Made by a program: the position numbers and the translations under genes. Below are positions 9,211 to 64,000 of a stretch of DNA of 64,000 nt, in pieces. The DNA comes from Siphonodentalium dalli (taxonomy: Eukaryota; Mollusca; Scaphopoda; Gadilida; Siphonodentaliidae). Position 1 is the stretch's first letter. Each line of letters starts with the position of its first letter. Location: contig CP136069.1 in NCBI GenBank assembly GCA_032622095.1, forward strand, positions 6,000,976-6,064,975, read 5' to 3'. Below the pieces are notes generated by a model. That model ran no database searches. It was given only the letters and a program-made list of their open reading frames with translations, and was not told the DNA's origin.

Positions 9211-9295
9211 AAAAGAAAAATACATACTGTACACAACATTGAGTAATGACTAAATATAAGACTTACAAATATCTTTTTCATTTCTTTTATTTGTA

Positions 9296-9480
9296 ATTGG
9301 CATAGCTTATCACAAACCAAAAATCAACATGACAATAAACGAAATTGAAATTACAAACTACACCTTTTACCGGACTCGGCCTCCGGTTCGCAGTTCGACT
9401 TTTAATCCTCCCAAAAATTCCCAGTTGTATAAATAAAAACCCCATGTGCCCAGGCGAAACAAGAATATCTACATTAGTAT
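9296..9480 (-). repeat. Family E dispersed repeat, minus-strand fragment
   Basis: On the minus strand it reads GTCGAACTGCGAACCGGAGG and then CCGAGTCCGGTAAAAGGTGT, matching 31330-31440 closely and 18730-18790 more weakly. It is unclassified and has no ORF. Confidence 0.7.
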
Positions 9481-9522
9481 ACATGCGGCGCGGTAATAAC
9501 TTTATATTATAGAGAGGGCTAA

Positions 9523-19918: not shown

Positions 19919-20163
19919 GCCTTGAAATAGTGTGCCTGTTATTTGCAGAATGAGGTCCCCAGAGGGCGAATTTAGTGATGCTACCTCACATAGCGGGCTA
20001 GCATCACCAAATTCACCCTCTTGGGACCTCATTCTGCTTACACCTCAGCAGAATGACGTTCCCAGAGGGTGAATTTGGTGATGCTAGCCCGCTATGCGGG
20101 GTAGCATCACTAAATTCACCCTCTGGGGACCTCATTCTGCAAATGACAGACACACTATTTCAA
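19919..20163. mobile_element. Family C double-hairpin element with long flanking direct repeats
   Basis: Two ~95-bp hairpins of the GCAGAATGAGG type lie side by side (19946-20039 and 20048-20140). They are enclosed by outer inverted repeats CTTGAAATAGTGTG and CACACTATTTCAAG. The sequence GGCGGGGTAATGTAC occurs immediately outside both ends (19903-19917 and 20163-20177). No coding capacity was seen. The ~200-bp interior found in other family C copies is absent. Confidence 0.85.
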
Positions 20164-28352: not shown

Positions 28353-29035
28353 GCAGAACGAGGTCCCATGCAGAGGGTGAATTTAGTGCCACTACCCCCG
28401 CGCATGCAGTGACACTCCCCCGTACATGCAGTGGCACTCCCCCGCACATGTAGTGACACTCCCCAGCACATGCAGTGACACTTCCCCGCACATGCAGTGA
28501 CACTTCTCCGCACATGCAGTGACACCCCGCACATGCAGTGACACTCCCCCGCACATGCAGTGACACTACCCCGCACATGCAGTGACACTACCCCCGCACA
28601 TGCAGCGACACTACCCCCGCACACACAGTGACACTACCCCCGCACATGCAGTGACACTACCCCCACACATGCAGCGACACTACCCCCGCACATGCAGCGA
28701 CACTACCCCCGCACATGCAGTGACACTACCCTCGCACATGCAGTGACACTACCCCCACACATGCAGCGACACTACCCCCGCACATGCAGCGACACTACCC
28801 CCGCACATGCAGTGACACTACCCTCGCACATGCAGTGACACTACCCCCACACATGCAGTGACACTACCCCCGCACATGTAGTGACACTACCCCCGCACAT
28901 GCAGTGACACTACCCCCGCACATGCAGTGGGCTCAGGCTAGCGTGTCATCATCTGCAATAATAGACATATAGAGACATATTTAAGTTCCCAGATGGTGAA
29001 GATGGTGATGTGCACCCATTGGACCGATATATATT
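28353..29035 (-). mobile_element. Family C element whose hairpin loop holds a minisatellite
   Basis: The left arm (GCAGAACGAGGTCCC ... AGAGGGTGAATTTAGTG, 28353-28387) and the far side (GTGGGCTCAGGCTAGCG, then a decayed interior AGTTCCCAGATGGTGA ... CACCCATTGG up to about 29020) match family C. Between them is the 23-bp array at 28387-28930. The returning hairpin arm is largely lost. Confidence 0.7.
28387..28930. repeat. 23-bp GC-rich minisatellite, about 23 units
   Basis: The unit GCAGTGACACTACCCCCGC followed by ACAT repeats with few changes (CTCCCC, CCACAC, AGCGAC). Early units are 20-22 bp long and later ones a regular 23 bp. Variant order suggests 92-bp blocks in the second half (CTCGC, CACAC and two AGCGAC units recur in order). 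Cys-rich minus-strand frames are periodicity artefacts. Confidence 0.95.
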
Positions 29036-29204
29036 TTTACGTACCGTCGGAACTATATTTAGTCACCTAATATCTTATTTTGACGACCAAAAGTTTGCAA
29101 TAATGGTAATTCTTTCGCTATTAATAACAACAATATGAACTGAGCCAGACATAGACAATTTTAAAAGACAAGAACTAAGATCATGTCAGAAATAGAGGAT
29201 CTAC

Positions 29205-29715
29205 AACGAGTCCCCAGTTAATAGCGGAATTTACAAAACGAGTCCAGTAAATTAGGTCTGGATCGAGCCTTTGACGAGGACCAGACCTAATTTACTGGAC
29301 GAGTTTTGTAATTTCCGCTAAAAACTGGGGACGAGCTGTAGATTATATGTATTACATGATACAAAACATCGACAAAACATACTTAAATCATCAAATAGGA
29401 CGCGAAACTAACATCGGCTTCTATAAGGCAGGCGATGACGTTTCGCGTAACTATTCGCGTTTACCCGCGTAAAGAAATAGTCCCAGATAAATAAAGACTC
29501 TTTGGCTCATTTAATGGCGGATAGTTAATGACATAACTTTTCAAACTCTTCATTCATGATAGCTTGTTGGAAAAATATTGGAAGCCATAGTAATTTTAGA
29601 CGTAGCGTATATCATGTTAACAGACGACAAACCGGAAGTCAAAGATCACCTGGCACTATTTCCTGTTATTAAACGAACGTTTAATATCACAATTCATAGA
29701 ATGGGTTTATTGAAT
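29205..29715 (+). mobile_element. Family J dispersed element with foldback head
   Basis: The head is a ~60-bp-arm foldback: CTACAACGAGTCCCCAGTTA ... TTAGGTCTGG, then CCAGACCTAATTTACTGGAC ... CTGGGGACGAGCTGTAG. The body then runs through ACATGATACAAAACATCGAC and GGACGCGAAACTAAC (29398-29412) to GTTATTAAACGAACGTTTAA. It matches 6541-6945 in reverse, and its first part matches 42690-42797. A 118-codon frame at 29578-29934 crosses its end and is not conserved in the other copy. The element class is unknown. Confidence 0.85.
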
Positions 29716-29719
29716 GGAA

Positions 29720-30204
29720 TAAGGGTAGGATCATGTAATAAATCCTTATACCAAATGTTCTTGTGGTATTTTAGCAGAGAGATGGGAGATAACTCTGCCT
29801 GGAGTTTGCACGGTTATTTCAGCTGGAATGTGGGCCAACCAATTTTCCAATTTAGAATTCTATCAGATATTAAGTACCTGGTGGTTGCATTATCTATGTC
29901 CTATATCTATAGTCCCGCTATGCTGTGTGGGTAGAAAATCAGAATTTTAGTGATTTCTTATGCTCAAAAGTTAAGTGTGAGCTGGTATGTGAGCGAATTG
30001 AATGTCTTGTTTGTAGACAAAATAAATGTGAGCATTGGTTGACGAATCTAGGAAACCTGCTTTTTCCATAAATAGCTTTCTGGATATGGTTAATTGACAT
30101 GGAATTTATTTTTTCTACGAAACTCGAACCAACCGATGACGATAACGGAAGCGACTTTGGACCAAGATCAAGATCTTAATTGGGAATGTGTTTAAGAAAT
30201 GGAT
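29720..30204. other. No recognised feature
   Basis: Unique sequence. Part of an ORF that starts in family J runs in here without recognisable similarity. Confidence 0.35.
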
Positions 30205-34371: not shown

Positions 34372-35734
34372 GAGTATAAGCTGCATATGCTTGGCTTTGA
34401 TGGAAAATCATGGCTACTGCTTCATCAGATGCTTAAAGGTACCTCTTGTTTCGTGAAATACGGAGATTGCCAGTCCAGGCAATTTCAAATAGAGCAAGGA
34501 ACAAAACAAGGGTGGCGTTATTTCACCTCTTTTTTACATGCTCTTTGTTGACCAACTTTTGGTAGAACTGGCAAACTCGGGAGCAGGACTGAATATGTAT
34601 TCTGTAAACTGTTCATGTCCAACACAAGCTGATGATATGACACTCCTCTCTGTTTCGGAAAAAGGTCTTCAGCAGCTACTGACTATATGCACTATAATTA
34701 CAGTCGAAAATGGAGGTATCGATATAATGAACAAAAGTCAGTTTTTATTGTCTTTAATGAAAGTAAAATGCGCACAATAAGACGAGTACTAACCGGGCAT
34801 GGACTCTATGTGGGAAACAAAGTTGAAAGTCTTACACACTTAGGTGTCCCTATACATAAGCATAATCAAAACGGCGAAATAAAACATTGACGAAATAAAA
34901 CAGAAACTTAGGTCAAGCTATTTTGCTATGTCCAACATCGGTATGTATGCTGGAGGTATAACACCAGTCAGCAGTAGGACAATTTATACATCTATAATAT
35001 TGCCAAGAGGTCTCTTCTGTTGTGAACTGATGTGTGGCTTGACCGATTCCGATGTATTATCCCTGGAAAGAACTCACCGATTTTGCCTTAAAAAAATCCA
35101 AGGTTTACATTCCAAAACACGGACCAACATTGTAGAAGGGTTGCTGGGAATAGGTAATATTCACAGTTTTATTGAAAAAAAGAAGCTTCTCTTCTTCGGA
35201 AGTCTATGCGCCCTCACAACTGAGAAGGCAGCCAAATCAGTTTTCTTATTAAGGCTGCACTCGTTCTTCATAGATGGGGTTTCGGGAAAATCCTTCATTT
35301 CCGATATTGCAAATATTCTAGGTAACCACCAGTTGTTGTCATATTTTACAAATTATGTTTCTGAAAGTGAATTCCCATCAAAGTCGTCATGGAAAAGTAT
35401 AGTGCGCAAGGCAATATCTGAATATTCAGAACACGAATGGGAAAGCGCGGTGATCAGCGACAAATCACTCAGTCGCTTTCATGTTATACACCCACAGTTA
35501 TCAGTCTCCCATTTGTGGCGTTGCTTTCGAAAGTTCCCTAGACACAAAATAGCATATTTGACTGTGGCCGGCATCATAGCTTGTACTGAGTCCGAATTTT
35601 TAACTTGCAACAAATGTGGTGTTGCTTATGATGATATCCCTCTACACGTCATCATAAACTGCCCCGCCATTGCGGAATATCGCAACGACATATGGTACAA
35701 GAAAACTAAGATGCATGCATCAGGTCGGCCGTGA
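34372..35734 (+). pseudogene. Non-LTR retrotransposon reverse transcriptase, 5'-truncated and frameshifted
   Basis: Four overlapping open pieces in frames 1, 2, 1 and 2 (34372-34530, 34538-34745, 34745-34890, 34890-35734) together read as the C-terminal half of a non-LTR reverse transcriptase. Visible family motifs are LHMLGFDGKSW, then EQGTKQG (the QG block before the palm), then QADDMTLLS with the catalytic aspartate pair. NKSQF and LTHLGVP follow, in the usual order. The last 268 codons form the post-RT region and end with C-x2-C-x9-H-x4-C (CNKCG...HVIINC, about 35602-35660), a finger common at this position in such elements. There is no endonuclease domain and the start is missing; at least three frameshifts disable it. 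It sits between two tandem-repeat blocks. The clade is not assigned. Confidence 0.85.
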
Positions 35735-42100: not shown

Positions 42101-42689
42101 GGTGAGTTACTATTTTTGTCTTCTTTTCATTCCTTATACAACCGTGTATATATATACACCGGCCCAGTATACGTTCCATATGCAATAATGTAATGAGTTA
42201 TACCCATGTAAAGCAGAATAATGTATAATTGAAAATCATTTAGCCAACAAAAAAACAACAACAACAACAGCAACAACAACAACAAACAAATCGCGAAACC
42301 TGCATGGTGCCGCCAATTATGTTGTACTCATTACTGTCTATGTTATTATCTAGAAGATATGTTATAATTTATGTTATATGTGATATGATATATGTTATAT
42401 GCCATGCAGTGGTATCGCCAACAGGGGCATATCGAAGAAATTTTAACACGAAATAAAACAAAAAGTGATGTTTTATTGTCGAAACGAAATTGTTCCTTCT
42501 GAACGGCTCTATGTGTGTTTCGAGCGCGATCCCATTCGTCAACCGATCACGTGATGGAAGCTGCGTAACTAAATGTTCATTAAATAACAACTAAACGATA
42601 CATGGTGTGCACACCCACACACACACGCACGCACACACATATGGAAGCTCTACAGCTAGTCGTAAGTTTAGAACGAAATTTACAAAAAG
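42101..42689. other. No gene; (CAA)n and (CA)n microsatellites
   Basis: A CAA-rich tract lies at 42247-42290 and a CA/GCAC tract at 42610-42640. ATGTTATATGTGATATGATA at about 42371 is a small TATG-like patch. Nothing else is recognised. Confidence 0.55.
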
Positions 42690-42797
42690 GCTCGGCCCTG
42701 ACCTCATTTACTGGACGAGTTTGTAAATATTGCTATAAACTAGGGACGAGTTGTAGATTCTATTTAATACTTGATCCAAAATCTCCATAAAACATAA
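42690..42797 (+). mobile_element. Family J element head, running into the 48-bp satellite
   Basis: GGCCCTGACCTCATTTACTG, GGACGAGTTTGTAAAT, GGGACGAGTTGTAGATTCTA and ATAAAACATAATTCAA follow the family J copies at 29270-29390 and 6860-6945 base by base with moderate divergence. Exactly where those copies continue into GGACGCGAAACTAAC, this copy enters the first satellite unit (GGGACGTGAAACTAAC). The rest of the element is not present in the window. Confidence 0.85.
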
Positions 42798-44609
42798 TTC
42801 AATTAATATATGGGACGTGAAACTAACAATGGCTTCCATGAGGCATTCAATTAATACATTGGACGTGAAACTAACAGTGGCTTCCATAAGGCATTCAATT
42901 AATACATTGGACGTGAAACTAACAGTGGCTTCCATAAGGCATTCAATTAATACATTGGACGTGAAACTAACAGTGGCTTCCATGAGGCATTCAATTAATA
43001 CATTGGACGTGAAACTAACAATGGCTTCCATGAGGCATTCAATTAATACATTGGACGTGAAACTAACAGTGGCTTCCATGAGGCATTCAATTAATACATT
43101 GGACGTGAAACTAACAGTGGCTTCCATGAGGCATTCAATTAATATATGGGACGTGAAACTAACAATGGCTTCCATGTGGCATTCAATTAATTCATTGGAC
43201 GTGAAACTAACAGTGGCTTCCATGAGGCATTCAATTAATTCATTGGACGTGAAACTAACAGTGGCTTCCATGAGGCATTCAATTAATACATTGGACGTGA
43301 AACTAACAGTGGCTTCCATGAGGCATTCAATTAATACATTGGACGTGAAACTAACAGTGGCTTCCATGAGGCATTCAATTAATAAATTGGACGTGAAACT
43401 AACAGTGGCTTCCATGAGGCATTCAATTAATACATTGGACGTGAAACTAACAGTGGCTTCCATGAGGCATTCAATTAATAAATTGGACGTGAAACTAACA
43501 GTGGCTTCCATAAGGCATTCAATTAATATATGGGACGTGAAACTAACAGTGGCTTCCATGAGGCATTCAATTAATACATTGGACGTGAAACTAACAGTGG
43601 CTTCCATAAGGCATTCAATTAATAAATTGGACGTGAAACTAACAGTGGCTTCCATGAGGCATTCAATTAATACATTGGACGTGAAACTAACAGTGGCTTC
43701 CATGAGGCATTCAATTAATACATTGGACGTGAAACTAACAGTGGCTTCCATGAGGCATTCAATTAATAAATTGGACGTGAAACTAACAGTGGCTTCCATG
43801 AGGCATTCAATTAATAAATTGGACGTGAAACTAACAGTGGCTTCCATGAGGCATTCAATTAATACATTGGACGTGAAACTAACAGTGGCTTCCATGAGGC
43901 ATTCAATTAATAAATTGGACGTGAAACTAACAGTGGCTTCCATGAGGCATTCAATTAATACATTGGACGTGAAACTAACAGTGGCTTCCATGAGGCATTC
44001 AATTAATAAATTGGACGTGAAACTAACAGTGGCTTCCATGAGGCATTCAATTAATACATTGGACGTGAAACTAACAGTGGCTTCCATGAGGCATTCAATT
44101 AATACATTGGACGTGAAACTAACAGTGGCTTCCATGAGGCATTCAATTAATACATTGGACGTGAAACTAACAGTGGCTTCCATGAGGCATTCAATTAATA
44201 AATTGGACGTGAAACTAACAGTGACTTCCATGAGGCATTCAATTAATAAATTGGACGTGAAACTAACAGTGGCTTCCATGAGGCATTCAATTAATACATT
44301 GGACGTGAAACTAACAGTGGCTTCCATGAGGCATTCAATTAATAAATTGGACGTGAAACTAACAGTGGCTTCCATGAGGCATTCAATTAATACATTGGAC
44401 GTGAAACTAACAGTGGCTTACATGAGGCATTCAATTAATAAATTGGACGTGAAACTAACAGTGGCTTCCATAAGGCATTCAATTAATACATTGGACATGA
44501 AACTAACAGTGGCTTACATGAGGCATTCAATTAATAAATTGGACGTGAAACTAACAGTGGCTTCCATGAGGCATTCAATTAATAAATTGGACATGAAACT
44601 AACAGTGGC

Positions 44610-47600
44610 TTACATGAGGCATTCAATTAATAAATTGGACGTGAAACTAACAGTGGCTTCCATAAGGCATTCAATTAATACATTGGACATGAAACTAACA
44701 GTGGCTTACATGAGGCATTCAATTAATAAATTGGACGTGAAACTAACAGTGGCTTCCATAAGGCATTCAATTAATACATTGGACGTGAAACTAACAGTGG
44801 CTTCCATAAGGCATTCAATTAATAAATTGGACGTGAAACTAACAGTGGCTTCCATGAGGCATTCAATTAATACATTGGACGTGAAACTAACAGTGGCTTC
44901 CATGAGGCATTCAATTAATAAATTGGACGTGAAACTAACAGTGACTTCCATGAGGCATTCAATTAATTCATTGGACGTGAAACTAACAGTGGCTTCCATG
45001 AGGCATTCAATTAATAAATTGGACGTGAAACTAACAGTGGCTTCCATAAGGCATTCAATTAATACATTGGACGTGAAACTAACAGTGGCTTCCATGAGGC
45101 ATTCAATTAATAAATTGGACGTGAAACTAACAGTGGCTTCCATGAGGCATTCAATTAATTCATTGGACGTGAAACTAACAGTGGCTTCCATGAGGCATTC
45201 AATTAATAAATTGGACGTGAAACTAACAGTGGCTTCCATAAGGCATTCAATTAATAAATTGGACGTGAAACTAACAGTGGCTTCCATAAGGCATTCAATT
45301 AATAAATTGGACGTGAAACTAACAGCGGCTTACATGAGGCATTCAATTAATAAATTGGACGTGAAACTAACAGTGGCTTACATGAGGCATTCAATTAATA
45401 CATTGGACGTGAAACTAACAGTGGCTTCCATGTGGCATTCAATTAATAAATTGGACGTGAAACTAACAGTGGCTTCCATAAGGCATTCAATTAATTCATT
45501 GGACGTGAAACTAACAGTGGCTTCCATGAGGCATTCAATTAATAAATTGGACGTGAAACTAACAGTGGCTTCCATAAGGCATTCAATTAATAAATTGGAC
45601 GTGAAACTAACAGTGGCTTCCATGAGGCATTCAATTAATAAATTGGACGTGAAACTAACAGTGGCTTCCATGAGGCATTCAATTAATAAATTGGACGTGA
45701 AACTAACAGTGGCTTCCATGAGGCATTCAATTAATAAATTGGACGTGAAACTAACAGTGGCTTCCATGAGGCATTCAATTAATAAATTGGACGTGAAACT
45801 AACAGTGGCTTCCATGAGGCATTCAATTAATAAATTGGACGTGAAACTAACAGTGGCTTCCATAAGGCATTCAATTAATAAATTGGACGTGAAACTAACA
45901 GCGGCTTACATGAGGCATTCAATTAATAAATTGGACGTGAAACTAACAGTGGCTTACATGAGGCATTCAATTAATACATTGGACGTGAAACTAACAGTGG
46001 CTTCCATGTGGCATTCAATTAATAAATTGGACGTGAAACTAACAGTGGCTTCCATGAGGCATTCAATTAATAAATTGGACGTGAAACTAACAGTGGCTTC
46101 CATGAGGCATTCAATTAATAAATTGGACGTGAAACTAACAGTGGCTTCCATGAGGCATTCAATTAATAAATTGGACGTGAAACTAACAGTGGCTTCCATA
46201 AGGCATTCAATTAATAAATTGGACGTGAAACTAACAGTGGCTTCCATGAGGCATTCAATTAATAAATTGGACGTGAAACTAACAGTGGCTTCCATAAGGC
46301 ATTCAATTAATACATTGGACGTGAAACTAACAGTGGCTTCCATGAGGCATTCAATTAATACATTGGACGTGAAACTAACAGTGGCTTCCATAAGGCATTC
46401 AATTAATACATTGGACGTGAAACTAACAGTGGCTTACATAAGGCATTCAATTAATATATGGGACGTGAAACTAACAGTGGCTTACATAAGGCATTCAATT
46501 AATATATGGGACGTGAAACTAACAGTGGCTTCCATAAGGCATTCAATTAATAAATTGGACGTGAAACTAACAGTGGCTTCCATGTGGCATTCAATTAATA
46601 CATTGGACGTGAAACTAACAGTGGCTTCCATGAGGCATTCAATTAATAAATTGGACGTGAAACTAACAGTGGCTTCCATGTGGCATTCAATTAATACATT
46701 GGACGTGAAACTAACAGTGGCTTCCATGAGGCATTCAATTAATAAATTGGACGTGAAACTAACAGTGGCTTCCATGTGGCATTCAATTAATACATTGGAC
46801 GTGAAACTAACAGTGGCTTCCATGAGGCATTCAATTAATAAATTGGACGTGAAACTAACAGTGGCTTCCATGAGGCATTCAATTAATACATTGGACGTGA
46901 AACTAACAGTGGCTTCCATAAGGCATTCAATTAATACATTGGACGTGAAACTAACAGTGGCTTCCATAAGGCATTCAATTAATACATTGGACGTGAAACT
47001 AACAGTGGCTTCCATAAGGCATTCAATTAATACATTGGACGTGAAACTAACAGTGGCTTCCATGAGGCATTCAATTAATACATTGGACGTGAAACTAACA
47101 GTGGCTTCCATGTGGCATTCAATTAATACATTGGACGTGAAACTAACAGTGGCTTCCATGAGGCATTCAATTAATACATTGGACGTGAAACTAACAGTGG
47201 CTTCCATGAGGCATTCAATTAATACATTGGACGTGAAACTAACAGTGGCTTCCATAAGGCATTCAATTAATAAATTGGACGTGAAACTAACAGTGGCTTC
47301 CATGAGGCATTCAATTAATAAATTGGACGTGAAACTAACAGTGGCTTCCATAAGGCATTCAATTAATAAATTGGACGTGAAACTAACAGTGGCTTCCATG
47401 AGGCATTCAATTAATACATTGGACGTGAAACTAACAGTGGCTTCCATAAGGCATTCAATTAATAAATTGGACGTGAAACTAACAGTGGCTTCCATAAGGC
47501 ATTCAATTAATAAATTGGACGTGAAACTAACAGTGGCTTCCATAAGGCATTCAATTAATACATTGGACGTGAAACTAACAGTGGCTTCCATGAGGCATTC

Positions 47601-49408
47601 AATTAATAAATTGGACGTGAAACTAACAGTGGCTTCCATAAGGCATTCAATTAATAAATTGGACGTGAAACTAACAGTGGCTTACATGAGGCATTCAATT
47701 AATACATTGGACGTGAAACTAACAGTGGCTTACATGAGGCATTCAATTAATAAATTGGACGTGAAACTAACAGTGGCTTCCATGAGGCATTCAATTAATA
47801 AATTGGACGTGAAACTAACAGTGGCTTCCATAAGGCATTCAATTAATACATTGGACGTGAAACTAACAGTGGCTTCCATGAGGCATTCAATTAATACATT
47901 GGACGTGAAACTAACAGTGGCTTACATGAGGCATTCAATTAATACATTGGACGTGAAACTAACAGTGGCTTCCATGAGGCATTCAATTAATACATTGGAC
48001 GTGAAACTAACAGTGGCTTCCATGAGGCATTCAATTAATAAATTGGACGTGAAACTAACAGTGGCTTCCATTAGGCATTCAATTAATACATTGGACGTGA
48101 AACTAACAGTGGCTTCCATGAGGCATTCAATTAATTCATTGGACGTGAAACTAACAGTGGCTTCCATGAGGCATTCAATTAATACATTGGACGTGAAACT
48201 AACAGTGGCTTCCATAAGGCATTCAATTAATAAATTGGACGTGAAACTAACAGTGGCTTCCATAAGGCATTCAATTAATAAATTGGACGTGAAACTAACA
48301 GTGGCTTCCATAAGGCATTCAATTAATAAATTGGACGTGAAACTAACAGTGGCTTCCATGAGGCATTCAATTAATAAATTGGACGTGAAACTAACAGTGG
48401 CTTCCATGAGGCATTCAATTAATAAATTGGACGTGAAACTAACAGTGGCTTCCATGAGGCATTCAATTAATACATTGGACGTGAAACTAACAGTGGCTTC
48501 CATGAGGCATTCAATTAATACATTGGACGTGAAACTAACAGTGGCTTCCATAAGGCATTCAATTAATAAATTGGACGTGAAACTAACAGTGGCTTCCATA
48601 AGGCATTCAATTAATAAATTGGACGTGAAACTAACAGCGGCTTCCATGAGGCATTCAATTAATACATTGGACGTGAAACTAACAGTGGCTTCCATAAGGC
48701 ATTCAATTAATAAATTGGACGTGAAACTAACAGCGGCTTCCATGAGGCATTCAATTAATAAATTGGACGTGAAACTAACAGTGGCTTCCATGAGGCATTC
48801 AATTAATAAATTGGACGTGAAACTAACAGTGGCTTCCATTAGGCATTCAATTAATAAATTGGACGTGAAACTAACAGTGGCTTCCATTAGGCATTCAATT
48901 AATACATTGGACGTGAAACTAACAGTGGCTTCCATGAGGCATTCAATTAATAAATTGGACGTGAAACTAACAGTGGCTTCCATGAGGCATTCAATTAATA
49001 CATTGGACGTGAAACTAACAGTGGCTTACATGAGGCATTCAATTAATAAATTGGACGTGAAACTAACAGTGGCTTCCATGAGGCATTCAATTAATAAATT
49101 GGACGTGAAACTAACAGTGGCTTACATGAGGCATTCAATTAATAAATTGGACGTGAAACTAACAGTGGCTTCCATGAGGCATTCAATTAATACATTGGAC
49201 GTGAAACTAACAGTGGCTTCCATAAGGCATTCAATTAATACATTGGACGTGAAACTAACAGTGGCTTCCATAAGGCATTCAATTAATAAATTGGACGTGA
49301 AACTAACAGTGGCTTCCATAAGGCATTCAATTAATAAATTGGACGTGAAACTAACAGTGGCTTCCATGAGGCATTCAATTAATACATTGGACGTGAAACT
49401 AACAGTGG
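44610..49408. repeat. Higher-order repeat block, first copy (14,592-bp period)
   Basis: Unit-by-unit variant order here is the same as in 59202-64000: the same runs between CTTAC units, the same GTGACTTCC unit (44941 and 59533), and the same GCGGC units. Immediately upstream (44497-44610 against 59089-59202) the variants disagree, which marks the left junction. Confidence 0.93.
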
Positions 49409-52400
49409 CTTCCATAAGGCATTCAATTAATAAATTGGACGTGAAACTAACAGTGGCTTCCATAAGGCATTCAATTAATAAATTGGACGTGAAACTAACA
49501 GTGGCTTACATAAGGCATTCAATTAATACATTGGACGTGAAACTAACAGTGGCTTACATGAGGCATTCAATTAATAAATTGGACGTGAAACTAACAGTGG
49601 CTTCCATGAGGCATTCAATTAATACATTGGACGTGAAACTAACAGTGGCTTCCATAAGGCATTCAATTAATAAATTGGACGTGAAACTAACAGTGGCTTC
49701 CATGAGGCATTCAATTAATAAATTGGACGTGAAACTAACAGTGGCTTCCATGAGGCATTCAATTAATAAATTGGACGTGAAACTAACAGTGGCTTCCATG
49801 AGGCATTCAATTAATAAATTGGACGTGAAACTAACAGTGGCTTCCATAAGGCATTCAATTAATAAATTGGACGTGAAACTAACAGTGGCTTACATGAGGC
49901 ATTCAATTAATAAATTGGACGTGAAACTAACAGTGGCTTCCATGAGGCATTCAATTAATAAATTGGACGTGAAACTAACAGTGGCTTACATAAGGCATTC
50001 AATTAATAAATTGGACGTGAAACTAACAGTGGCTTCCATGAGGCATTCAATTAATACATTGGACGTGAAACTAACAGTGGCTTACATAAGGCATTCAATT
50101 AATAAATTGGACGTGAAACTAACAGTGGCTTCCATGAGGCATTCAATTAATACATTGGACGTGAAACTAACAGTGGCTTCCATAAGGCATTCAATTAATA
50201 AATTGGACGTGAAACTAACAGTGGCTTCCATAAGGCATTCAATTAATAAATTGGACGTGAAACTAACAGTGGCTTCCATGAGGCATTCAATTAATTCATT
50301 GGACGTGAAACTAACAGTGGCTTCCATGAGGCATTCAATTAATAAATTGGACGTGAAACTAACAGTGGCTTACATAAGGCATTCAATTAATTCATTGGAC
50401 GTGAAACTAACAGTGGCTTCCATGAGGCATTCAATTAATACATTGGACGTGAAACTAACAGTGGCTTCCATGAGGCATTCAATTAATAAATTGGACGTGA
50501 AACTAACAGTGGCTTCCATAAGGCATTCAATTAATAAATTGGACGTGAAACTAACAGTGGCTTCCATGAGGCATTCAATTAATATATGGGACGTGAAACT
50601 AACAGTGGCTTCCATGAGGCATTCAATTAATACATTGGACGTGAAACTAACAGTGGCTTCCATGAGGCATTCAATTAATAAATTGGACGTGAAACTAACA
50701 GTGGCTTCCATGAGGCATTCAATTAATAAATTGGACGTGAAACTAACAGTGGCTTCCATGAGGCATTCAATTAATACATTGGACGTGAAACTAACAGTGG
50801 CTTCCATGAGGCATTCAATTAATAAATTGGACGTGAAACTAACAGTGGCTTCCATGAGGCATTCAATTAATACATTGGACGTGAAACTAACAGTGGCTTC
50901 CATAAGGCATTCAATTAATACATTGGACGTGAAACTAACAGTGGCTTCCATGAGGCATTCAATTAATAAATTGGACGTGAAACTAACAGTGGCTTCCATG
51001 AGGCATTCAATTAATACATTGGACGTGAAACTAACAGTGGCTTACATAAGGCATTCAATTAATACATTGGACGTGAAACTAACAGTGGCTTCCATAAGGC
51101 ATTCAATTAATACATTGGACGTGAAACTAACAGTGGCTTCCATGAGGCATTCAATTAATAAATTGGACGTGAAACTAACAGTGGCTTCCATAAGGCATTC
51201 AATTAATAAATTGGACGTGAAACTAACAGTGGCTTCCATGAGGCATTCAATTAATACATTGGACGTGAAACTAACAGTGGCTTCCATGATGCATTCAATT
51301 AATAAATTGGACGTGAAACTAACAGTGGCTTCCATGAGGCATTCAATTAATACATTGGACGTGAAACTAACAGTGGCTTACATGAGGCATTCAATTAATA
51401 AATTGGACGTGAAACTAACAGTGGCTTCCATAAGGCATTCAATTAATACATTGGACGTGAAACTAACAGTGGCTTCCATGATGCATTCAATTAATAAATT
51501 GGACGTGAAACTAACAGTGGCTTCCATGAGGCATTCAATTAATACATTGGACGTGAAACTAACAGTGGCTTCCATGAGGCATTCAATTAATTCATTGGAC
51601 GTGAAACTAACAGTGGCTTCCATGAGGCATTCAATTAATACATTGGACGTGAAACTAACAGTGGCTTACATGAGGCATTCAATTAATAAATTGGACGTGA
51701 AACTAACAGTGGCTTCCATAAGGCATTCAATTAATACATTGGACGTGAAACTAACAGTGGCTTCCATAAGGCATTCAATTAATTCATTGGACGTGAAACT
51801 AACAGTGGCTTCCATGAGGCATTCAATTAATACATTGGACGTGAAACTAACAGTGGCTTCCATGAGGCATTCAATTAATAAATTGGACGTGAAACTAACA
51901 GTGGCTTCCATGAGGCATTCAATTAATAAATTGGACGTGAAACTAACAGTGGCTTCCATGAGGCATTCAATTAATAAATTGGACGTGAAACTAACAGTGG
52001 CTTCCATGAGGCATTCAATTAATAAATTGGACGTGAAACTAACAGTGGCTTACATGAGGCATTCAATTAATAAATTGGACGTGAAACTAACAGTGGCTTC
52101 CATGAGGCATTCAATTAATAAATTGGACGTGAAACTAACAGTGGCTTCCATGAGGCATTCAATTAATAAATTGGACGTGAAACTAACAGTGGCTTCCATG
52201 AGGCATTCAATTAATAAATTGGACGTGAAACTAACAGTGGCTTCCATGAGGCATTCAATTAATACATTGGACGTGAAACTAACAGTGGCTTCCATGAGGC
52301 ATTCAATTAATAAATTGGACGTGAAACTAACAGTGGCTTCCATGAGGCATTCAATTAATAAATTGGACGTGAAACTAACAGTGGCTTACATGAGGCATTC

Positions 52401-53009
52401 AATTAATAAATTGGACGTGAAACTAACAGTGGCTTCCATGAGGCATTCAATTAATAAATTGGACGTGAAACTAACAGTGGCTTCCATGAGGCATTCAATT
52501 AATAAATTGGACGTGAAACTAACAGTGGCTTCCATGAGGCATTCAATTAATATATGGGACGTGAAACTAACAGTGGCTTCCATGAGGCATTCAATTAATA
52601 CATTGGACGTGAAACTAACAGTGGCTTCCATAAGGCATTCAATTAATACATTGGACGTGAAACTAACAGTGGCTTCCATGAGGCATTCAATTAATACATT
52701 GGACGTGAAACTAACAGTGGCTTACATGAGGCATTCAATTAATAAATTGGACGTGAAACTAACAGTGGCTTCCATGAGGCATTCAATTAATACATTGGAC
52801 GTGAAACTAACAGTGGCTTCCATGAGGCATTCAATTAATAAATTGGACGTGAAACTAACAGTGGCTTCCATGAGGCATTCAATTAATAAATTGGACGTGA
52901 AACTAACAGTGGCTTCCATAAGGCATTCAATTAATACATTGGACGTGAAACTAACAGTGGCTTCCATGAGGCATTCAATTAATACATTGGACGTGAAACT
53001 AACAGTGGC

Positions 53010-54000
53010 TTACATGAGGCATTCAATTAATAAATTGGACGTGAAACTAACAGTGGCTTCCATAAGGCATTCAATTAATACATTGGACGTGAAACTAACA
53101 GTGGCTTCCATGAGGCATTCAATTAATAAATTGGACGTGAAACTAACAGTGGCTTCCATGAGGCATTCAATTAATAAATTGGACGTGAAACTAACAGTGG
53201 CTTCCATGAGGCATTCAATTAATAAATTGGACGTGAAACTAACAGTGGCTTCCATGAGGCATTCAATTAATACATTGCACGTGAAACTAACAGTGGCTTC
53301 CATAAGGCATTCAATTAATACATTGGACGTGAAACTAACAGTGGCTTACATAAGGCATTCAATTAATAAATTGGACGTGAAACTAACAGTGGCTTCCATA
53401 AGGCATTCAATTAATAAATTGGACGTGAAACTAACAGTGGCTTCCATGAGGCATTCAATTAATACATTGCACGTGAAACTAACAGTGGCTTCCATAAGGC
53501 ATTCAATTAATAAATTGGACGTGAAACTAACAGTGGCTTCCATAAGGCATTCAATTAATAAATTGGACGTGAAACTAACAGTGGCTTCCATGAGGCATTC
53601 AATTAATAAATTGGACGTGAAACTAACAGTGGCTTCCATGAGGCATTCAATTAATACATTGCACGTGAAACTAACAGTGGCTTCCATAAGGCATTCAATT
53701 AATACATTGGACGTGAAACTAACAGTGGCTTACATAAGGCATTCAATTAATAAATTGGACGTGAAACTAACAGTGGCTTCCATGAGGCATTCAATTAATA
53801 CATTGCACGTGAAACTAACAGTGGCTTCCATAAGGCATTCAATTAATACATTGGACGTGAAACTAACAGTGGCTTACATAAGGCATTCAATTAATAAATT
53901 GGACGTGAAACTAACAGTGGCTTCCATGAGGCATTCAATTAATACATTGCACGTGAAACTAACAGTGGCTTCCATAAGGCATTCAATTAATACATTGGAC
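53010..54000. repeat. Local higher-order structure marked by a GCAC variant
   Basis: Units with CATTGCACGTG in place of CATTGGACGTG occur at about 53278, 53470, 53662, 53806 and 53950. They are spaced 192, 192, 144 and 144 bp apart. This variant is confined to the segment, so a 3-4-unit block was amplified locally. Confidence 0.85.
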
Positions 54001-57000
54001 GTGAAACTAACAGTGGCTTCCATAAGGCATTCAATTAATAAATTGGACGTGAAACTAACAGTGGCTTCCATGAGGCATTCAATTAATAAATTGGACGTGA
54101 AACTAACAGTGGCTTACATAAGGCATTCAATTAATAAATTGGACGTGAAACTAACAGTGGCTTCCATGAGGCATTCAATTAATAAATTGGACGTGAAACT
54201 AACAGTGGCTTCCATAAGGCATTCAATTAATACATTGGACGTGAAACTAACAGTGGCTTCCATAAGGCATTCAATTAATACATTGGACGTGAAACTAACA
54301 GTGGCTTACATAAGGCATTCAATTAATACATTGGACGTGAAACTAACAGTGGCTTACATAAGGCATTCAATTAATACATTGGACGTGAAACTAACAGTGG
54401 CTTCCATGAGGCATTCAATTAATACATTGGACGTGAAACTAACAGTGGCTTCCATGAGGCATTCAATTAATAAATTGGACGTGAAACTAACAGTGGCTTC
54501 CATGAGGCATTCAATTAATAAATTGGACGTGAAACTAACAGTGGCTTCCATAAGGCATTCAATTAATACATTGGACGTGAAACTAACAGTGGCTTCCATG
54601 AGGCATTCAATTAATAAATTGGACGTGAAACTAACAGTGGCTTACATAAGGCATTCAATTAATACATTGGACGTGAAACTAACAGTGGCTTCCATAAGGC
54701 ATTCAATTAATAAATTGGACGTGAAACTAACAGTGGCTTCCATAAGGCATTCAATTAATAAATTGGACGTGAAACTAACAGTGGCTTCCATGAGGCATTC
54801 AATTAATAAATTGGACGTGAAACTAACAGTGGCTTCCATGAGGCATTCAATTAATAAATTGGACGTGAAACTAACAGTGGCTTCCATGAGGCATTCAATT
54901 AATAAATTGGACGTGAAACTAACAGTGGCTTCCATGAGGCATTCAATTAATAAATTGGACGTGAAACTAACAGTGGCTTCCATGAGGCATTCAATTAATA
55001 CATTGGACGTGAAACTAACAGTGGCTTCCATGAGGCATTCAATTAATTCATTGGACGTGAAACTAACAGTGGCTTCCATGAGGCATTCAATTAATAAATT
55101 GGACGTGAAACTAACAGTGGCTTCCATGAGGCATTCAATTAATACATTGGACGTGAAACTAACAGTGGCTTACATAAGGCATTCAATTAATACATTGGAC
55201 GTGAAACTAACAGTGGCTTCCATAAGGCATTCAATTAATACATTGGACGTGAAACTAACAGTGGCTTCCATAAGGCATTCAATTAATACATTGGACGTGA
55301 AACTAACAGTGGCTTCCATGAGGCATTCAATTAATAAATTGGACGTGAAACTAACAGTGGCTTCCATGAGGCATTCAATTAATAAATTGGACGTGAAACT
55401 AACAGTGGCTTCCATGAGGCATTCAATTAATAAATTGGACGTGAAACTAACAGTGGCTTCCATGAGGCATTCAATTAATAAATTGGACGTGAAACTAACA
55501 GTGGCTTCCATGAGGCATTCAATTAATAAATTGGACGTGAAACTAACAGTGGCTTCCATAAGGCATTCAATTAATAAATTGGACGTGAAACTAACAGTGG
55601 CTTCCATGAGGCATTCAATTAATAAATTGGACGTGAAACTAACAGTGGCTTCCATGAGGCATTCAATTAATAAATTGGACGTGAAACTAACAGTGGCTTC
55701 CATGAGGCATTCAATTAATAAATTGGACGTGAAACTAACAGTGGCTTCCATGAGGCATTCAATTAATAAATTGGACGTGAAACTAACAGTGGCTTCCATG
55801 AGGCATTCAATTAATAAATTGGACGTGAAACTAACAGTGGCTTCCATAAGGCATTCAATTAATACATTGGACGTGAAACTAACAGTGGCTTCCATGAGGC
55901 ATTCAATTAATACATTGGACGTGAAACTAACAGTGGCTTCCATAAGGCATTCAATTAATAAATTGGACGTGAAACTAACAGTGGCTTACATGAGGCATTC
56001 AATTAATAAATTGGACGTGAAACTAACAGTGGCTTCCATGAGGCATTCAATTAATACATTGGACGTGAAACTAACAGTGGCTTACATGAGGCATTCAATT
56101 AATAAATTGGACGTGAAACTAACAGTGGCTTCCATGAGGCATTCAATTAATAAAATGGACGTGAAACTAACAGTGGCTTCCATGAGGCATTCAATTAATA
56201 AATTGGACGTGAAACTAACAGTGGCTTCCATGAGGCATTCAATTAATACATTGGACGTGAAACTAACAGTGGCTTCCATGAGGCATTCAATTAATACATT
56301 GGACGTGAAACTAACAGTGGCTTCCATGAGGCATTCAATTAATACATTGGACGTGAAACTAACAGTGGCTTACATGAGGCATTCAATTAATAAATTGGAC
56401 GTGAAACTAACAGTGGCTTCCATGAGGCATTCAATTAATAAATTGGACGTGAAACTAACAGTGGCTTCCATGAGGCATTCAATTAATAAATTGGACGTGA
56501 AACTAACAGTGGCTTCCATAAGGCATTCAATTAATAAATTGGACGTGAAACTAACAGTGGCTTCCATGAGGCATTCAATTAATAAATTGGACGTGAAACT
56601 AACAGTGGCTTCCATGAGGCATTCAATTAATAAATTGGACGTGAAACTAACAGTGGCTTCCATGAGGCATTCAATTAATAAATTGGACGTGAAACTAACA
56701 GTGGCTTCCATAAGGCATTCAATTAATAAATTGGACGTGAAACTAACAGTGGCTTCCATGAGGCATTCAATTAATAAATTGGACGTGAAACTAACAGTGG
56801 CTTCCATGAGGCATTCAATTAATAAATTGGACGTGAAACTAACAGTGGCTTCCATAAGGCATTCAATTAATAAATTGGACGTGAAACTAACAGTGGCTTC
56901 CATGAGGCATTCAATTAATACATTGGACGTGAAACTAACAGTGGCTTCCATGAGGCATTCAATTAATAAATTGGACGTGAAACTAACAGTGGCTTCCATA

Positions 57001-59201
57001 AGGCATTCAATTAATACATTGGACGTGAAACTAACAGTGGCTTCCATGAGGCATTCAATTAATAAATTGGACGTGAAACTAACAGTGGCTTCCATGAGGC
57101 ATTCAATTAATAAATTGGACGTGAAACTAACAGTGGCTTCCATGAGGCATTCAATTAATAAATTGGACGTGAAACTAACAGTGGCTTCCATGTGGCATTC
57201 AATTAATACATTGGACGTGAAACTAACAGTGGCTTCCATAAGGCATTCAATTAATAAATTGGACGTGAAACTAACAGTGGCTTCCATGAGGCATTCAATT
57301 AATACATTGGACGTGAAACTAACAGTGGCTTACATAAGGCATTCAATTAATACATTGGACGTGAAACTAACAGTGGCTTCCATGAGGCATTCAATTAATA
57401 AATTGGACGTGAAACTAACAGTGGCTTCCATGAGGCATTCAATTAATACATTGGACGTGAAACTAACAGTGGCTTCCATGAGGCATTCAATTAATAAATT
57501 GGACGTGAAACTAACAGTGGCTTCCATAAGGCATTCAATTAATACATTGGACGTGAAACTAACAGTGGCTTCCATGAGGCATTCAATTAATAAATTGGAC
57601 GTGAAACTAACAGTGGCTTCCATGAGGCATTCAATTAATAAATTGGACGTGAAACTAACAGTGGCTTCCATAAGGCATTCAATTAATACATTGGACGTGA
57701 AACTAACAGTGGCTTCCATAAGGCATTCAATTAATAAATTGGACGTGAAACTAACAGTGGCTTCCATAAGGCATTCAATTAATACATTGGACGTGAAACT
57801 AACAGTGGCTTCCATAAGGCATTCAATTAATAAATTGGACGTGAAACTAACAGTGGCTTCCATGAGGCATTCAATTAATAAATTGGACGTGAAACTAACA
57901 GTGGCTTCCATGAGGCATTCAATTAATTCATTGGACGTGAAACTAACAGTGGCTTCCATAAGGCATTCAATTAATACATTGGACGTGAAACTAACAGTGG
58001 CTTCCATGAGGCATTCAATTAATAAATTGGACGTGAAACTAACAGTGGCTTACATGAGGCATTCAATTAATAAATTGGACGTGAAACTAACAGTGGCTTC
58101 CATAAGGCATTCAATTAATACATTGGACGTGAAACTAACAGTGGCTTCCATGAGGCATTCAATTAATAAATTGGACGTGAAACTAACAGTGGCTTACATG
58201 AGGCATTCAATTAATAAATTGGACGTGAAACTAACAGTGGCTTCCATGAGGCATTCAATTAATTCATTGGACGTGAAACTAACAGTGGCTTACATAAGGC
58301 ATTCAATTAATAAATTGGACGTGAAACTAACAGTGGCTTCCATGAGGCATTCAATTAATACATTGGACGTGAAACTAACAGTGGCTTCCATGAGGCATTC
58401 AATTAATAAATTGGACGTGAAACTAACAGTGGCTTACATGAGGCATTCAATTAATACATTGGACGTGAAACTAACAGTGGCTTACATGAGGCATTCAATT
58501 AATACATTGGACGTGAAACTAACAGTGGCTTACATAAGGCATTCAATTAATACATTGGACGTGAAACTAACAGTGGCTTCCATGAGGCATTCAATTAATA
58601 CATTGGACGTGAAACTAACAGTGGCTTCCATGAGGCATTCAATTAATAAATTGGACGTGAAACTAACAGTGGCTTCCATAAGGCATTCAATTAATACATT
58701 GGACGTGAAACTAACAGTGGCTTCCATGAGGCATTCAATTAATTCATTGGACGTGAAACTAACAGTGGCTTCCATGAGGCATTCAATTAATAAATTGGAC
58801 GTGAAACTAACAGTGGCTTCCATGAGGCATTCAATTAATAAATTGGACGTGAAACTAACAGTGGCTTCCATGAGGCATTCAATTAATAAATTGGACGTGA
58901 AACTAACAGTGGCTTCCATGAGGCATTCAATTAATACATTGGACGTGAAACTAACAGTGGCTTACATAAGGCATTCAATTAATACATTGGACGTGAAACT
59001 AACAGTGGCTTCCATAAGGCATTCAATTAATACATTGGACATGAAACTAACAGTGGCTTACATGAGGCATTCAATTAATAAATTGGACGTGAAACTAACA
59101 GTGGCTTCCATAAGGCATTCAATTAATACATTGGACGTGAAACTAACAGTGGCTTCCATAAGGCATTCAATTAATACATTGGACATGAAACTAACAGTGG
59201 C

Positions 59202-62200
59202 TTACATGAGGCATTCAATTAATACATTGGACGTGAAACTAACAGTGGCTTCCATAAGGCATTCAATTAATACATTGGACATGAAACTAACAGTGGCTTA
59301 CATGAGGCATTCAATTAATAAATTGGACGTGAAACTAACAGTGGCTTCCATAAGGCATTCAATTAATACATTGGACGTGAAACTAACAGTGGCTTCCATA
59401 AGGCATTCAATTAATAAATTGGACGTGAAACTAACAGTGGCTTCCATGAGGCATTCAATTAATACATTGGACGTGAAACTAACAGTGGCTTCCATGAGGC
59501 ATTCAATTAATAAATTGGACGTGAAACTAACAGTGACTTCCATGAGGCATTCAATTAATTCATTGGACGTGAAACTAACAGTGGCTTCCATGAGGCATTC
59601 AATTAATAAATTGGACGTGAAACTAACAGTGGCTTCCATAAGGCATTCAATTAATACATTGGACGTGAAACTAACAGTGGCTTCCATGAGGCATTCAATT
59701 AATAAATTGGACGTGAAACTAACAGTGGCTTCCATGAGGCATTCAATTAATTCATTGGACGTGAAACTAACAGTGGCTTCCATGAGGCATTCAATTAATA
59801 AATTGGACGTGAAACTAACAGTGGCTTCCATAAGGCATTCAATTAATAAATTGGACGTGAAACTAACAGTGGCTTCCATAAGGCATTCAATTAATAAATT
59901 GGACGTGAAACTAACAGCGGCTTACATGAGGCATTCAATTAATAAATTGGACGTGAAACTAACAGTGGCTTACATGAGGCATTCAATTAATACATTGGAC
60001 GTGAAACTAACAGTGGCTTCCATGTGGCATTCAATTAATAAATTGGACGTGAAACTAACAGTGGCTTCCATAAGGCATTCAATTAATTCATTGGACGTGA
60101 AACTAACAGTGGCTTCCATGAGGCATTCAATTAATAAATTGGACGTGAAACTAACAGTGGCTTCCATAAGGCATTCAATTAATAAATTGGACGTGAAACT
60201 AACAGTGGCTTCCATGAGGCATTCAATTAATAAATTGGACGTGAAACTAACAGTGGCTTCCATGAGGCATTCAATTAATAAATTGGACGTGAAACTAACA
60301 GTGGCTTCCATGAGGCATTCAATTAATAAATTGGACGTGAAACTAACAGTGGCTTCCATGAGGCATTCAATTAATAAATTGGACGTGAAACTAACAGTGG
60401 CTTCCATGAGGCATTCAATTAATAAATTGGACGTGAAACTAACAGTGGCTTCCATAAGGCATTCAATTAATAAATTGGACGTGAAACTAACAGCGGCTTA
60501 CATGAGGCATTCAATTAATAAATTGGACGTGAAACTAACAGTGGCTTACATGAGGCATTCAATTAATACATTGGACGTGAAACTAACAGTGGCTTCCATG
60601 TGGCATTCAATTAATAAATTGGACGTGAAACTAACAGTGGCTTCCATGAGGCATTCAATTAATAAATTGGACGTGAAACTAACAGTGGCTTCCATGAGGC
60701 ATTCAATTAATAAATTGGACGTGAAACTAACAGTGGCTTCCATGAGGCATTCAATTAATAAATTGGACGTGAAACTAACAGTGGCTTCCATAAGGCATTC
60801 AATTAATAAATTGGACGTGAAACTAACAGTGGCTTCCATGAGGCATTCAATTAATAAATTGGACGTGAAACTAACAGTGGCTTCCATAAGGCATTCAATT
60901 AATACATTGGACGTGAAACTAACAGTGGCTTCCATGAGGCATTCAATTAATACATTGGACGTGAAACTAACAGTGGCTTCCATAAGGCATTCAATTAATA
61001 CATTGGACGTGAAACTAACAGTGGCTTACATAAGGCATTCAATTAATATATGGGACGTGAAACTAACAGTGGCTTACATAAGGCATTCAATTAATATATG
61101 GGACGTGAAACTAACAGTGGCTTCCATAAGGCATTCAATTAATAAATTGGACGTGAAACTAACAGTGGCTTCCATGTGGCATTCAATTAATACATTGGAC
61201 GTGAAACTAACAGTGGCTTCCATGAGGCATTCAATTAATAAATTGGACGTGAAACTAACAGTGGCTTCCATGTGGCATTCAATTAATACATTGGACGTGA
61301 AACTAACAGTGGCTTCCATGAGGCATTCAATTAATAAATTGGACGTGAAACTAACAGTGGCTTCCATGTGGCATTCAATTAATACATTGGACGTGAAACT
61401 AACAGTGGCTTCCATGAGGCATTCAATTAATAAATTGGACGTGAAACTAACAGTGGCTTCCATGAGGCATTCAATTAATACATTGGACGTGAAACTAACA
61501 GTGGCTTCCATAAGGCATTCAATTAATACATTGGACGTGAAACTAACAGTGGCTTCCATAAGGCATTCAATTAATACATTGGACGTGAAACTAACAGTGG
61601 CTTCCATAAGGCATTCAATTAATACATTGGACGTGAAACTAACAGTGGCTTCCATGAGGCATTCAATTAATACATTGGACGTGAAACTAACAGTGGCTTC
61701 CATGTGGCATTCAATTAATACATTGGACGTGAAACTAACAGTGGCTTCCATGAGGCATTCAATTAATACATTGGACGTGAAACTAACAGTGGCTTCCATG
61801 AGGCATTCAATTAATACATTGGACGTGAAACTAACAGTGGCTTCCATAAGGCATTCAATTAATAAATTGGACGTGAAACTAACAGTGGCTTCCATAAGGC
61901 ATTCAATTAATAAATTGGACGTGAAACTAACAGTGGCTTCCATAAGGCATTCAATTAATAAATTGGACGTGAAACTAACAGTGGCTTCCATGAGGCATTC
62001 AATTAATAAATTGGACGTGAAACTAACAGTGGCTTCCATGAGGCATTCAATTAATAAATTGGACGTGAAACTAACAGTGGCTTCCATGAGGCATTCAATT
62101 AATAAATTGGACGTGAAACTAACAGTGGCTTCCATAAGGCATTCAATTAATACATTGGACGTGAAACTAACAGTGGCTTCCATGAGGCATTCAATTAATA

Positions 62201-64000
62201 AATTGGACGTGAAACTAACAGTGGCTTCCATAAGGCATTCAATTAATAAATTGGACGTGAAACTAACAGTGGCTTACATGAGGCATTCAATTAATACATT
62301 GGACGTGAAACTAACAGTGGCTTACATGAGGCATTCAATTAATAAATTGGACGTGAAACTAACAGTGGCTTCCATGAGGCATTCAATTAATAAATTGGAC
62401 GTGAAACTAACAGTGGCTTCCATAAGGCATTCAATTAATACATTGGACGTGAAACTAACAGTGGCTTCCATGAGGCATTCAATTAATACATTGGACGTGA
62501 AACTAACAGTGGCTTACATGAGGCATTCAATTAATACATTGGACGTGAAACTAACAGTGGCTTCCATGAGGCATTCAATTAATACATTGGACGTGAAACT
62601 AACAGTGGCTTCCATGAGGCATTCAATTAATAAATTGGACGTGAAACTAACAGTGGCTTCCATTAGGCATTCAATTAATACATTGGACGTGAAACTAACA
62701 GTGGCTTCCATGAGGCATTCAATTAATTCATTGGACGTGAAACTAACAGTGGCTTCCATGAGGCATTCAATTAATACATTGGACGTGAAACTAACAGTGG
62801 CTTCCATAAGGCATTCAATTAATAAATTGGACGTGAAACTAACAGTGGCTTCCATAAGGCATTCAATTAATAAATTGGACGTGAAACTAACAGTGGCTTC
62901 CATAAGGCATTCAATTAATAAATTGGACGTGAAACTAACAGTGGCTTCCATGAGGCATTCAATTAATAAATTGGACGTGAAACTAACAGTGGCTTCCATG
63001 AGGCATTCAATTAATAAATTGGACGTGAAACTAACAGTGGCTTCCATGAGGCATTCAATTAATACATTGGACGTGAAACTAACAGTGGCTTCCATGAGGC
63101 ATTCAATTAATACATTGGACGTGAAACTAACAGTGGCTTCCATAAGGCATTCAATTAATAAATTGGACGTGAAACTAACAGTGGCTTCCATAAGGCATTC
63201 AATTAATAAATTGGACGTGAAACTAACAGCGGCTTCCATGAGGCATTCAATTAATACATTGGACGTGAAACTAACAGTGGCTTCCATAAGGCATTCAATT
63301 AATAAATTGGACGTGAAACTAACAGCGGCTTCCATGAGGCATTCAATTAATAAATTGGACGTGAAACTAACAGTGGCTTCCATGAGGCATTCAATTAATA
63401 AATTGGACGTGAAACTAACAGTGGCTTCCATTAGGCATTCAATTAATAAATTGGACGTGAAACTAACAGTGGCTTCCATTAGGCATTCAATTAATACATT
63501 GGACGTGAAACTAACAGTGGCTTCCATGAGGCATTCAATTAATAAATTGGACGTGAAACTAACAGTGGCTTCCATGAGGCATTCAATTAATACATTGGAC
63601 GTGAAACTAACAGTGGCTTACATGAGGCATTCAATTAATAAATTGGACGTGAAACTAACAGTGGCTTCCATGAGGCATTCAATTAATAAATTGGACGTGA
63701 AACTAACAGTGGCTTACATGAGGCATTCAATTAATAAATTGGACGTGAAACTAACAGTGGCTTCCATGAGGCATTCAATTAATACATTGGACGTGAAACT
63801 AACAGTGGCTTCCATAAGGCATTCAATTAATACATTGGACGTGAAACTAACAGTGGCTTCCATAAGGCATTCAATTAATAAATTGGACGTGAAACTAACA
63901 GTGGCTTCCATAAGGCATTCAATTAATAAATTGGACGTGAAACTAACAGTGGCTTCCATGAGGCATTCAATTAATACATTGGACGTGAAACTAACAGTGG
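59202..64000. repeat. Higher-order repeat block, second copy (truncated by the window)
   Basis: This is the second copy of 44610-49408 at an offset of 14,592 bp (304 x 48). In the part I compared base by base, three differences cluster within about 80 bp (62009, 62040, 62088 against 47417, 47448, 47496). Confidence 0.93.

Follow-up and report, generated by a model that had tools for sequence, protein, structure and literature searches.

A 68-kb satellite enclosed by a single copy of a dispersed element in Siphonodentalium dalli

Introduction

How does a satellite begin? Satellite beginnings are usually inferred once the evidence has vanished. Passages of PMC12628747, PMC9659126, and PMC6947457 describe many transposon-derived satellites, among them Xstir and miDNA4, which stem from MITEs. 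The question is raised here by a 48-bp satellite of the scaphopod Siphonodentalium dalli that lies against part of a dispersed element, named J. The stretch analyzed, called the window, is 64,000 bp in length and covers positions 6,000,976–6,064,975 of contig CP136069.1 (C9) in GenBank assembly GCA_032622095.1.

Results

Extent and structure of the array. Tandem Repeats Finder reported a period of 48 bp, 97% matches, and 0% indels for the part of the array inside the window (42797–64000, plus strand), which contains 441 complete units. The array runs beyond the window to C9:6112075 (window-equivalent 111100). This end was first bracketed by spot samples to C9:6110200–6120000 and later narrowed to ~6112 kb. 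Parsing of the window and the fetched remainder gave 1,423 consecutive 48-bp units over 68.3 kb (C9:6043772 to 6112075), and growth in place to more than 21 kb, as proposed in a first-pass annotation of the window, is borne out at this greater length. All 1,423 units have the same orientation, each is exactly 48 bp, and none contains an insertion or an indel. The structure of the whole array is known from one assembly.

The units are highly similar. Sixty-five distinct units occur, with at most four differences from the consensus, and the 29 variant states include 8 singletons. Between units sampled at intervals of seven, the pairwise difference averages 1.62 per 48 bp. It climbs little with distance, from 1.41 between neighbors to only 1.58 between units 800 apart, so the variants are spread along the array. 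Units 304 positions (14,592 bp) apart are an exception: at this spacing, stretches of 102 and of 54 successive units match exactly, and in the window this offset gives 99.0% identity against a mean of 96.8% over offsets. Unless the 304-unit repeat is an assembly error, at least one growth step probably involved a block of many kilobases. Since 48 is divisible by 3, the minus strand of the array (window 42708–63617) has one frame that stays open for as many as 569 codons. Judged by its sequence, the frame does not look coding, and stops are dispersed through the array. The window gave no Rfam matches at gathering scores.

Both edges of the array are unique and clean in the assembly. The far edge carries a secondary array of eight 27/28-bp units (C9:6112076–6112297; positions 227–448 of fetched locus L060) that have GTGGCTTCCATGAGG in common with the 48-bp unit. 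These are followed by a 16-bp partial unit, after which J resumes. Given the partial unit and 13 bases that are extra relative to J, the founding breakpoints are not cleanly readable at this edge.

Element J. J is a dispersed element of ~550 bp. The window contains a full-length copy, defined by alignment at 29194–29743 (plus strand), with a single unit at 29382–29429. A second copy at 6507–6927 (minus strand) lacks most of the 5′ hairpin and has a single unit with a 2-bp deletion. The first-pass annotation had recognized both copies, with limits (29205–29715 and 6541–6945) that differ from the alignments. The array-bearing copy begins at ~42636, upstream of the 42690 noted there.

The ends of J were scorable in 28 of 30 copies and are mostly ATAGAGGATC on the left and GTAATAAA on the right. 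No consistent target-site duplication was found in these 28 copies: 13 have no repeat of at least 3 bp, and one has a repeat of 8 bp (TATATATA). To the right of the 3′ end, base 7 is T in 24 of the 28 copies and base 8 is A in 22 of them, a pattern that may reflect a target preference with a spacer of 6 bp. One full copy, folded as single-stranded DNA, forms a ~150-nt 5′ hairpin, and a 16-bp inverted repeat (ATTTATTACATGATCC/GGATCATGTAATAAAT) encloses the remainder of that copy (z −13 for the fold, 100 shuffles). A second hairpin, in the unit region (the core hairpin, approximately positions 13–74), is predicted in the 29-kb copy (z −5.66; equaled by 0 of 200 shuffles) and, more weakly, in locus L003 (z −1.81; 8 of 200 shuffles). 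No such hairpin appeared in L062, which matches best among the relatives (z 0.45), or in the folded piece of the array-bearing copy L111 (z −0.51); for two other J segments, z was −0.56 and −0.38.

The J copy around the array. The first satellite unit is identical to the unit of the 29-kb copy at 36 of 48 positions within a collinear J alignment, in agreement with the earlier proposal that the satellite is an amplified internal fragment of J. A hand count of 41 identities in 53 positions made for that proposal is exact, with the 12 differences falling in unit 1 and the five preceding bases identical. Collinearity of J with the ~100 bp before the array, also proposed, is confirmed by alignment of 42694–42845 with 29278–29430 (79% over 153 columns with a single gap; E 4e-32). 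For the final 112 bases of this stretch, 6927–6818 on the minus strand matches at 83%. On the left of the array, J 1–52 corresponds to 42636–42687 and J 87–243 to 42689–42844. These two segments almost abut, so the inner left hairpin arm is deleted in the array-bearing copy, whose 5′ part (42636–42796, plus strand) consists of J 1–52 and of J from 87 up to the unit.

The first-pass annotation had predicted that the rest of J would lie past the array. Beyond C9:6112075, four J blocks are present in the correct order and on the same strand, up to the 3′ end of J. They are J 251–350 at C9:6112319–6112400 (score 37), 362–454 in L062 numbering at C9:6112846–6112944 (score 41), J 459–496 at C9:6113352–6113389 (score 27), and J 510–546, which adjoins the 3′ end of the element, at C9:6113911–6113947 (score 31). 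These are the best scores per block, and the top score listed among 500 shuffles of the right flank was 20. The left flank scored 114 and 97 against two J references, compared with a best listed score of 23 among 500 dinucleotide shuffles. Shuffle scores were listed for 260 of 500 on the left and 450 of 500 on the right, and the remainder were taken as under the cut-off. A single J copy encloses the whole array, with its 5′ end on the left and its 3′ part on the right.

Three later insertions divide the 3′ part of this copy. By eye, the first has inverted CAAGCCTGCAAATA ends with ATGACATA on either side, and the second is bordered by TTAA and inverted AACCCTTTCAGTGCC. The third is similar to window 9252–9499.

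One locus and one founder. A 20-base junction word was searched in the whole genome (2.23 Gb, nine contigs) and gave 901 forward and 0 reverse matches; its reversed control gave 0 forward and 0 reverse. The first 100 positions listed are all inside the C9 array. Lists for other patterns run from C1 upward, and therefore the contigs before C9 should have no junction word. The window has 267 matches in 441 units, from which ~862 are expected in 1,423 units, near the 901 observed. The search was exact, and diverged arrays without the exact word would escape it. The satellite looks private to the C9 locus, with its growth postdating the J insertion.

Other J copies carry one unit each, in 56 of 56 fetched loci. 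The 29-kb copy as query supplied 30 of these loci and the array flank 26, with four array loci left out. They are the best-matching copies rather than a random sample (best 40 of 3,144 and 40 of 1,977 candidates scored). L024 holds three units and L030 two, and every one of these units is in a separate J copy.

The units record changes made before multiplication. Satellite units have A at position 1, C at position 4, and T at position 8 in 1,423 of 1,423 cases, compared with 1, 0, and 3 of 60 J units, respectively, and C at position 41 in 1,422 of 1,423, compared with 2 of 60. The 60 J units were collected from fetched J loci. As these satellite-wide changes are rare or absent in other J units, the founder had acquired them as an already inserted J copy, ahead of its multiplication. 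Of eight L062-type copies, most share the satellite differences at positions 11, 22, 33, and 34. At position 16, the J state G is kept in 28 satellite units, including the first. The 29-kb and 6.5-kb J copies are relatives of the founder and not the donor of the satellite; the founder itself is a J copy of greater divergence, for which L062-type copies are the best match. Flank identity and unit identity, compared across the 56 J copies over units of a short 48 bp, gave Spearman coefficients of 0.15 (p 0.26) on the left and −0.24 (p 0.07) on the right, and this correlation lends the founder reading no support.

Small arrays in other J copies. Arrays were sought genome-wide using the doubled words GAAACTAACAT and GCTTCTATAAGG, and the flanks were fetched and compared with J. 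The GAAACTAACAT search gave 18 forward and 17 reverse matches (reversed control, 3 and 326), and the GCTTCTATAAGG search matched once forward and 53 times in reverse (control, 1 and 2). Five further J copies with tandem repeats of the core were found. The first-pass annotation had asked whether other copies hold a few 48-bp units; none was found, and the five small arrays have other periods. This count leaves out the GAAACTAACAT matches at C1:194928164, C6:158405195, and C9:26987833.

Repeated pieces are numbered here on the J unit. The array at C4:6865567–6866240 has 16 core copies of a 41-bp piece (21–61) in runs of 5 and 11 and lies between two J flanks (E 4e-31 and 9e-61). Its runs stand 88 bp apart, and sequence of the J flank reappears in this interval (L108, L109, L114), and array and flank seem to have been duplicated jointly. 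The array at C1:274563021–274563294 has 10 copies of 29 and 23 bp (pieces 17–45 and 23–45), with J on either side and a different repeat interrupting the upstream part. On C2, four copies of 33 bp (piece 23–55) are found at 232974991 and two copies of 43 bp (piece 19–61) at 226909614. At each C2 locus, J is present downstream, and the upstream J starts only at J 197. The two loci are 92% alike over 328 bp, upstream repeat included, and hence descend from one composite; their repeated segments nonetheless differ. At C3:261684999, a long J copy (E 6e-78) has two copies of a 27-bp piece (34–60). All five small arrays repeat pieces within 17–61, inside the core-hairpin span of 13–74, and their differing periods argue for separate events.

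Several candidates were dropped. At C3:287991957, the compared flanks gave no J match. The same was found at C1:268830122–268831374 (L112, L113), where a 42-bp array of ~30 copies adjoins sequence that by eye resembles a coding exon. Matches of the GATGATGTCAT type and the arrays at C3:15.2 and 17.5 Mb, obtained in the GAAACTAACAT search, by eye appeared unrelated.

Duplication outside the core was also observed. L072 and L073 (C9:180.45 and 179.11 Mb) carry a 50-bp tandem duplication of J 323–372, and these are the only clear longer non-core duplications in 55 J loci scanned.

Two readings of the small arrays were weighed. The J core may be no hotspot at all, in a genome that makes arrays everywhere and in which common J merely catches some. 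This reading is slightly more probable than not. Tandem arrays are dense in the window and in the sampled C9 region, and the segment duplicated in L072 and L073 is not core. In addition, the doubled-word searches required the core and were thus able to find core arrays only, and the reversed control of the GAAACTAACAT search itself matched 3 and 326 times. However, two short exact words sufficed to find six J copies with core arrays, and clear longer duplications outside the core came to just two of the 55 loci. The other reading, put forward tentatively and considered rather unlikely, is that the J core is a recurrent seed: faltering replication at an imperfect hairpin would duplicate varying pieces around one center, which would occasionally escape into a satellite. 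If the core is such a seed, one dispersed family shows every stage, from 2 to 1,423 copies, in one genome.

Other arrays and side observations. A 23-bp array of 24 copies is found at window 28385–28929. Its left flank ends in a different dispersed palindromic family, which is also found at 20112–20144 and at L060 577–609. The far side resembles, by eye, the other half of this family, and the array is possibly a second transposon-born array in the window. Nine other window arrays were compared with already fetched sequence alone. Beyond the satellite, 4 of 11 samples from C9:6113000–6600200 (L041, L045, L047, L049) and 2 of 7 in a second sampling of the same span (L057, L059) lie, by eye, in other tandem arrays. 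This span is very rich in young arrays, and L049 looks like repeated coding sequence. The open frame at 34883–35731 matched no Pfam family and one homologue.

Discussion

Origin and growth of the array. An old J copy on C9 very probably duplicated a 48-bp internal segment, which then expanded in place to 1,423 units. Growth inside one J copy from one founder is shown by the flanks and units described above, and no sign of spread was found. Replication slippage or a template switch at or close to the core, where a hairpin is possible in some copies, may have produced the first duplication. The satellite unit starts with ATTCAAT, which is nearer to the J sequence directly following the unit (ATGCAAT) than to the J sequence directly ahead of it (CTTAAAT), and a template switch at the common AAT, exactly 48 bp apart, would fit this sequence. 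Blocks of as many as 102 units in a row have identical counterparts 14.6 kb away, which indicates growth beyond single-unit slippage; later steps could have involved unequal sister-chromatid exchange, break-induced replication, or gene conversion. Against this account stand the core hairpin not seen in L062, the closest relative, or in the folded L111 piece, the founding breakpoints blurred at the far edge, and an array taken from one assembly.

Among other explanations, the one that survives best is that the array is real and its assembled length and perfect 48-bp spacing were shaped by assembly. Zero indels in 1,423 units of a single assembly is striking, and the 304-unit repeat could be a mis-join. 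This explanation is nevertheless improbable, since 29 variant states imply few independent mutations, from which few indels are expected, and the array edges are unique and clean. Far less credible is an older satellite that was captured and carried by J, the outcome against which the first-pass annotation had set its own reading. Capture is known in principle for other elements, as a passage of PMC12628747 describes. It was not seen here: the junction word occurs on one strand in about the C9 array's own count, J copies carry single units (56 of 56), and the unit is collinear with J at both sides. Equally hard to credit is an array formed elsewhere and then inserted or recombined into the C9 copy, which edge units without clean founding breakpoints would allow, whereas the founder unit is the very J segment that the array replaced and no source array was found with the exact junction word in the whole genome.

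Comparison with known systems. The C9 locus has the features of a transposon-derived satellite grown in place, namely homology to an internal segment, both halves of the element as flanks, and a single segment elsewhere (56 of 56 best-matching loci, beside which the pattern searches found five array-bearing exceptions). Likeness to known systems was judged by description.

In Tetris, a non-autonomous foldback element of Drosophila virilis, an internal segment likewise gives satellite-like arrays inside the element, in the account cited from PMC4079207. There, the amplified TIR-220 repeats already belonged to the element in tandem, with arrays of up to 66 copies in that assembly, whereas the examined J copies have a single unit each and one locus has 1,423. 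The long inverted repeats at both ends and a consistent 8–10 bp target-site duplication, as in a Tetris-like foldback element, were not found in J (28 of 30 copies scored for duplication). Xstir and miDNA4, in Xenopus MITEs, resemble the J case in having tandem repeats from or in internal MITE sequence and composites of element plus array, according to sections of PMC12628747, PMC9659126, and PMC6947457. They are described there as families of structures; J presents one huge array with both halves of its host and small arrays of other periods.

In maize, CRM1TR and CRM4TR have separate origins from similar regions of their parents (PMC3648361, part cited). They share with J a repeated origin from a similar region of a dispersed element and local homogenization. 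The same part describes LTR retrotransposon parents and monomers derived from LTR/UTR sequence, in contrast to the short element and 23–48 bp units of J. Cg_HINE of Crassostrea gigas also has arrays between the left and right parts of a non-autonomous element (PMC7492417, as excerpted). In that excerpt every element has the array as a permanent module, whereas in J it is absent except in six of the copies examined. The standing central tandem array that marks a Helentron-associated HINE was not found; the J copies in all 56 fetched loci have one unit each. The mouse minisatellite Ms6-hm is likewise attributed to a dispersed element, MaLR, of another class and in another host, in a passage of PMC6947457.

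Transposon-born satellites are thus already known, and the C9 case is unusually complete: it combines single-unit relatives, both halves of the host element, one locus, founder mutations, and small arrays of the same family. With the stages side by side in one genome (1; 2, 2, 4, 10, and 16 copies; 68 kb), seeding, growth, and breakpoints become measurable.
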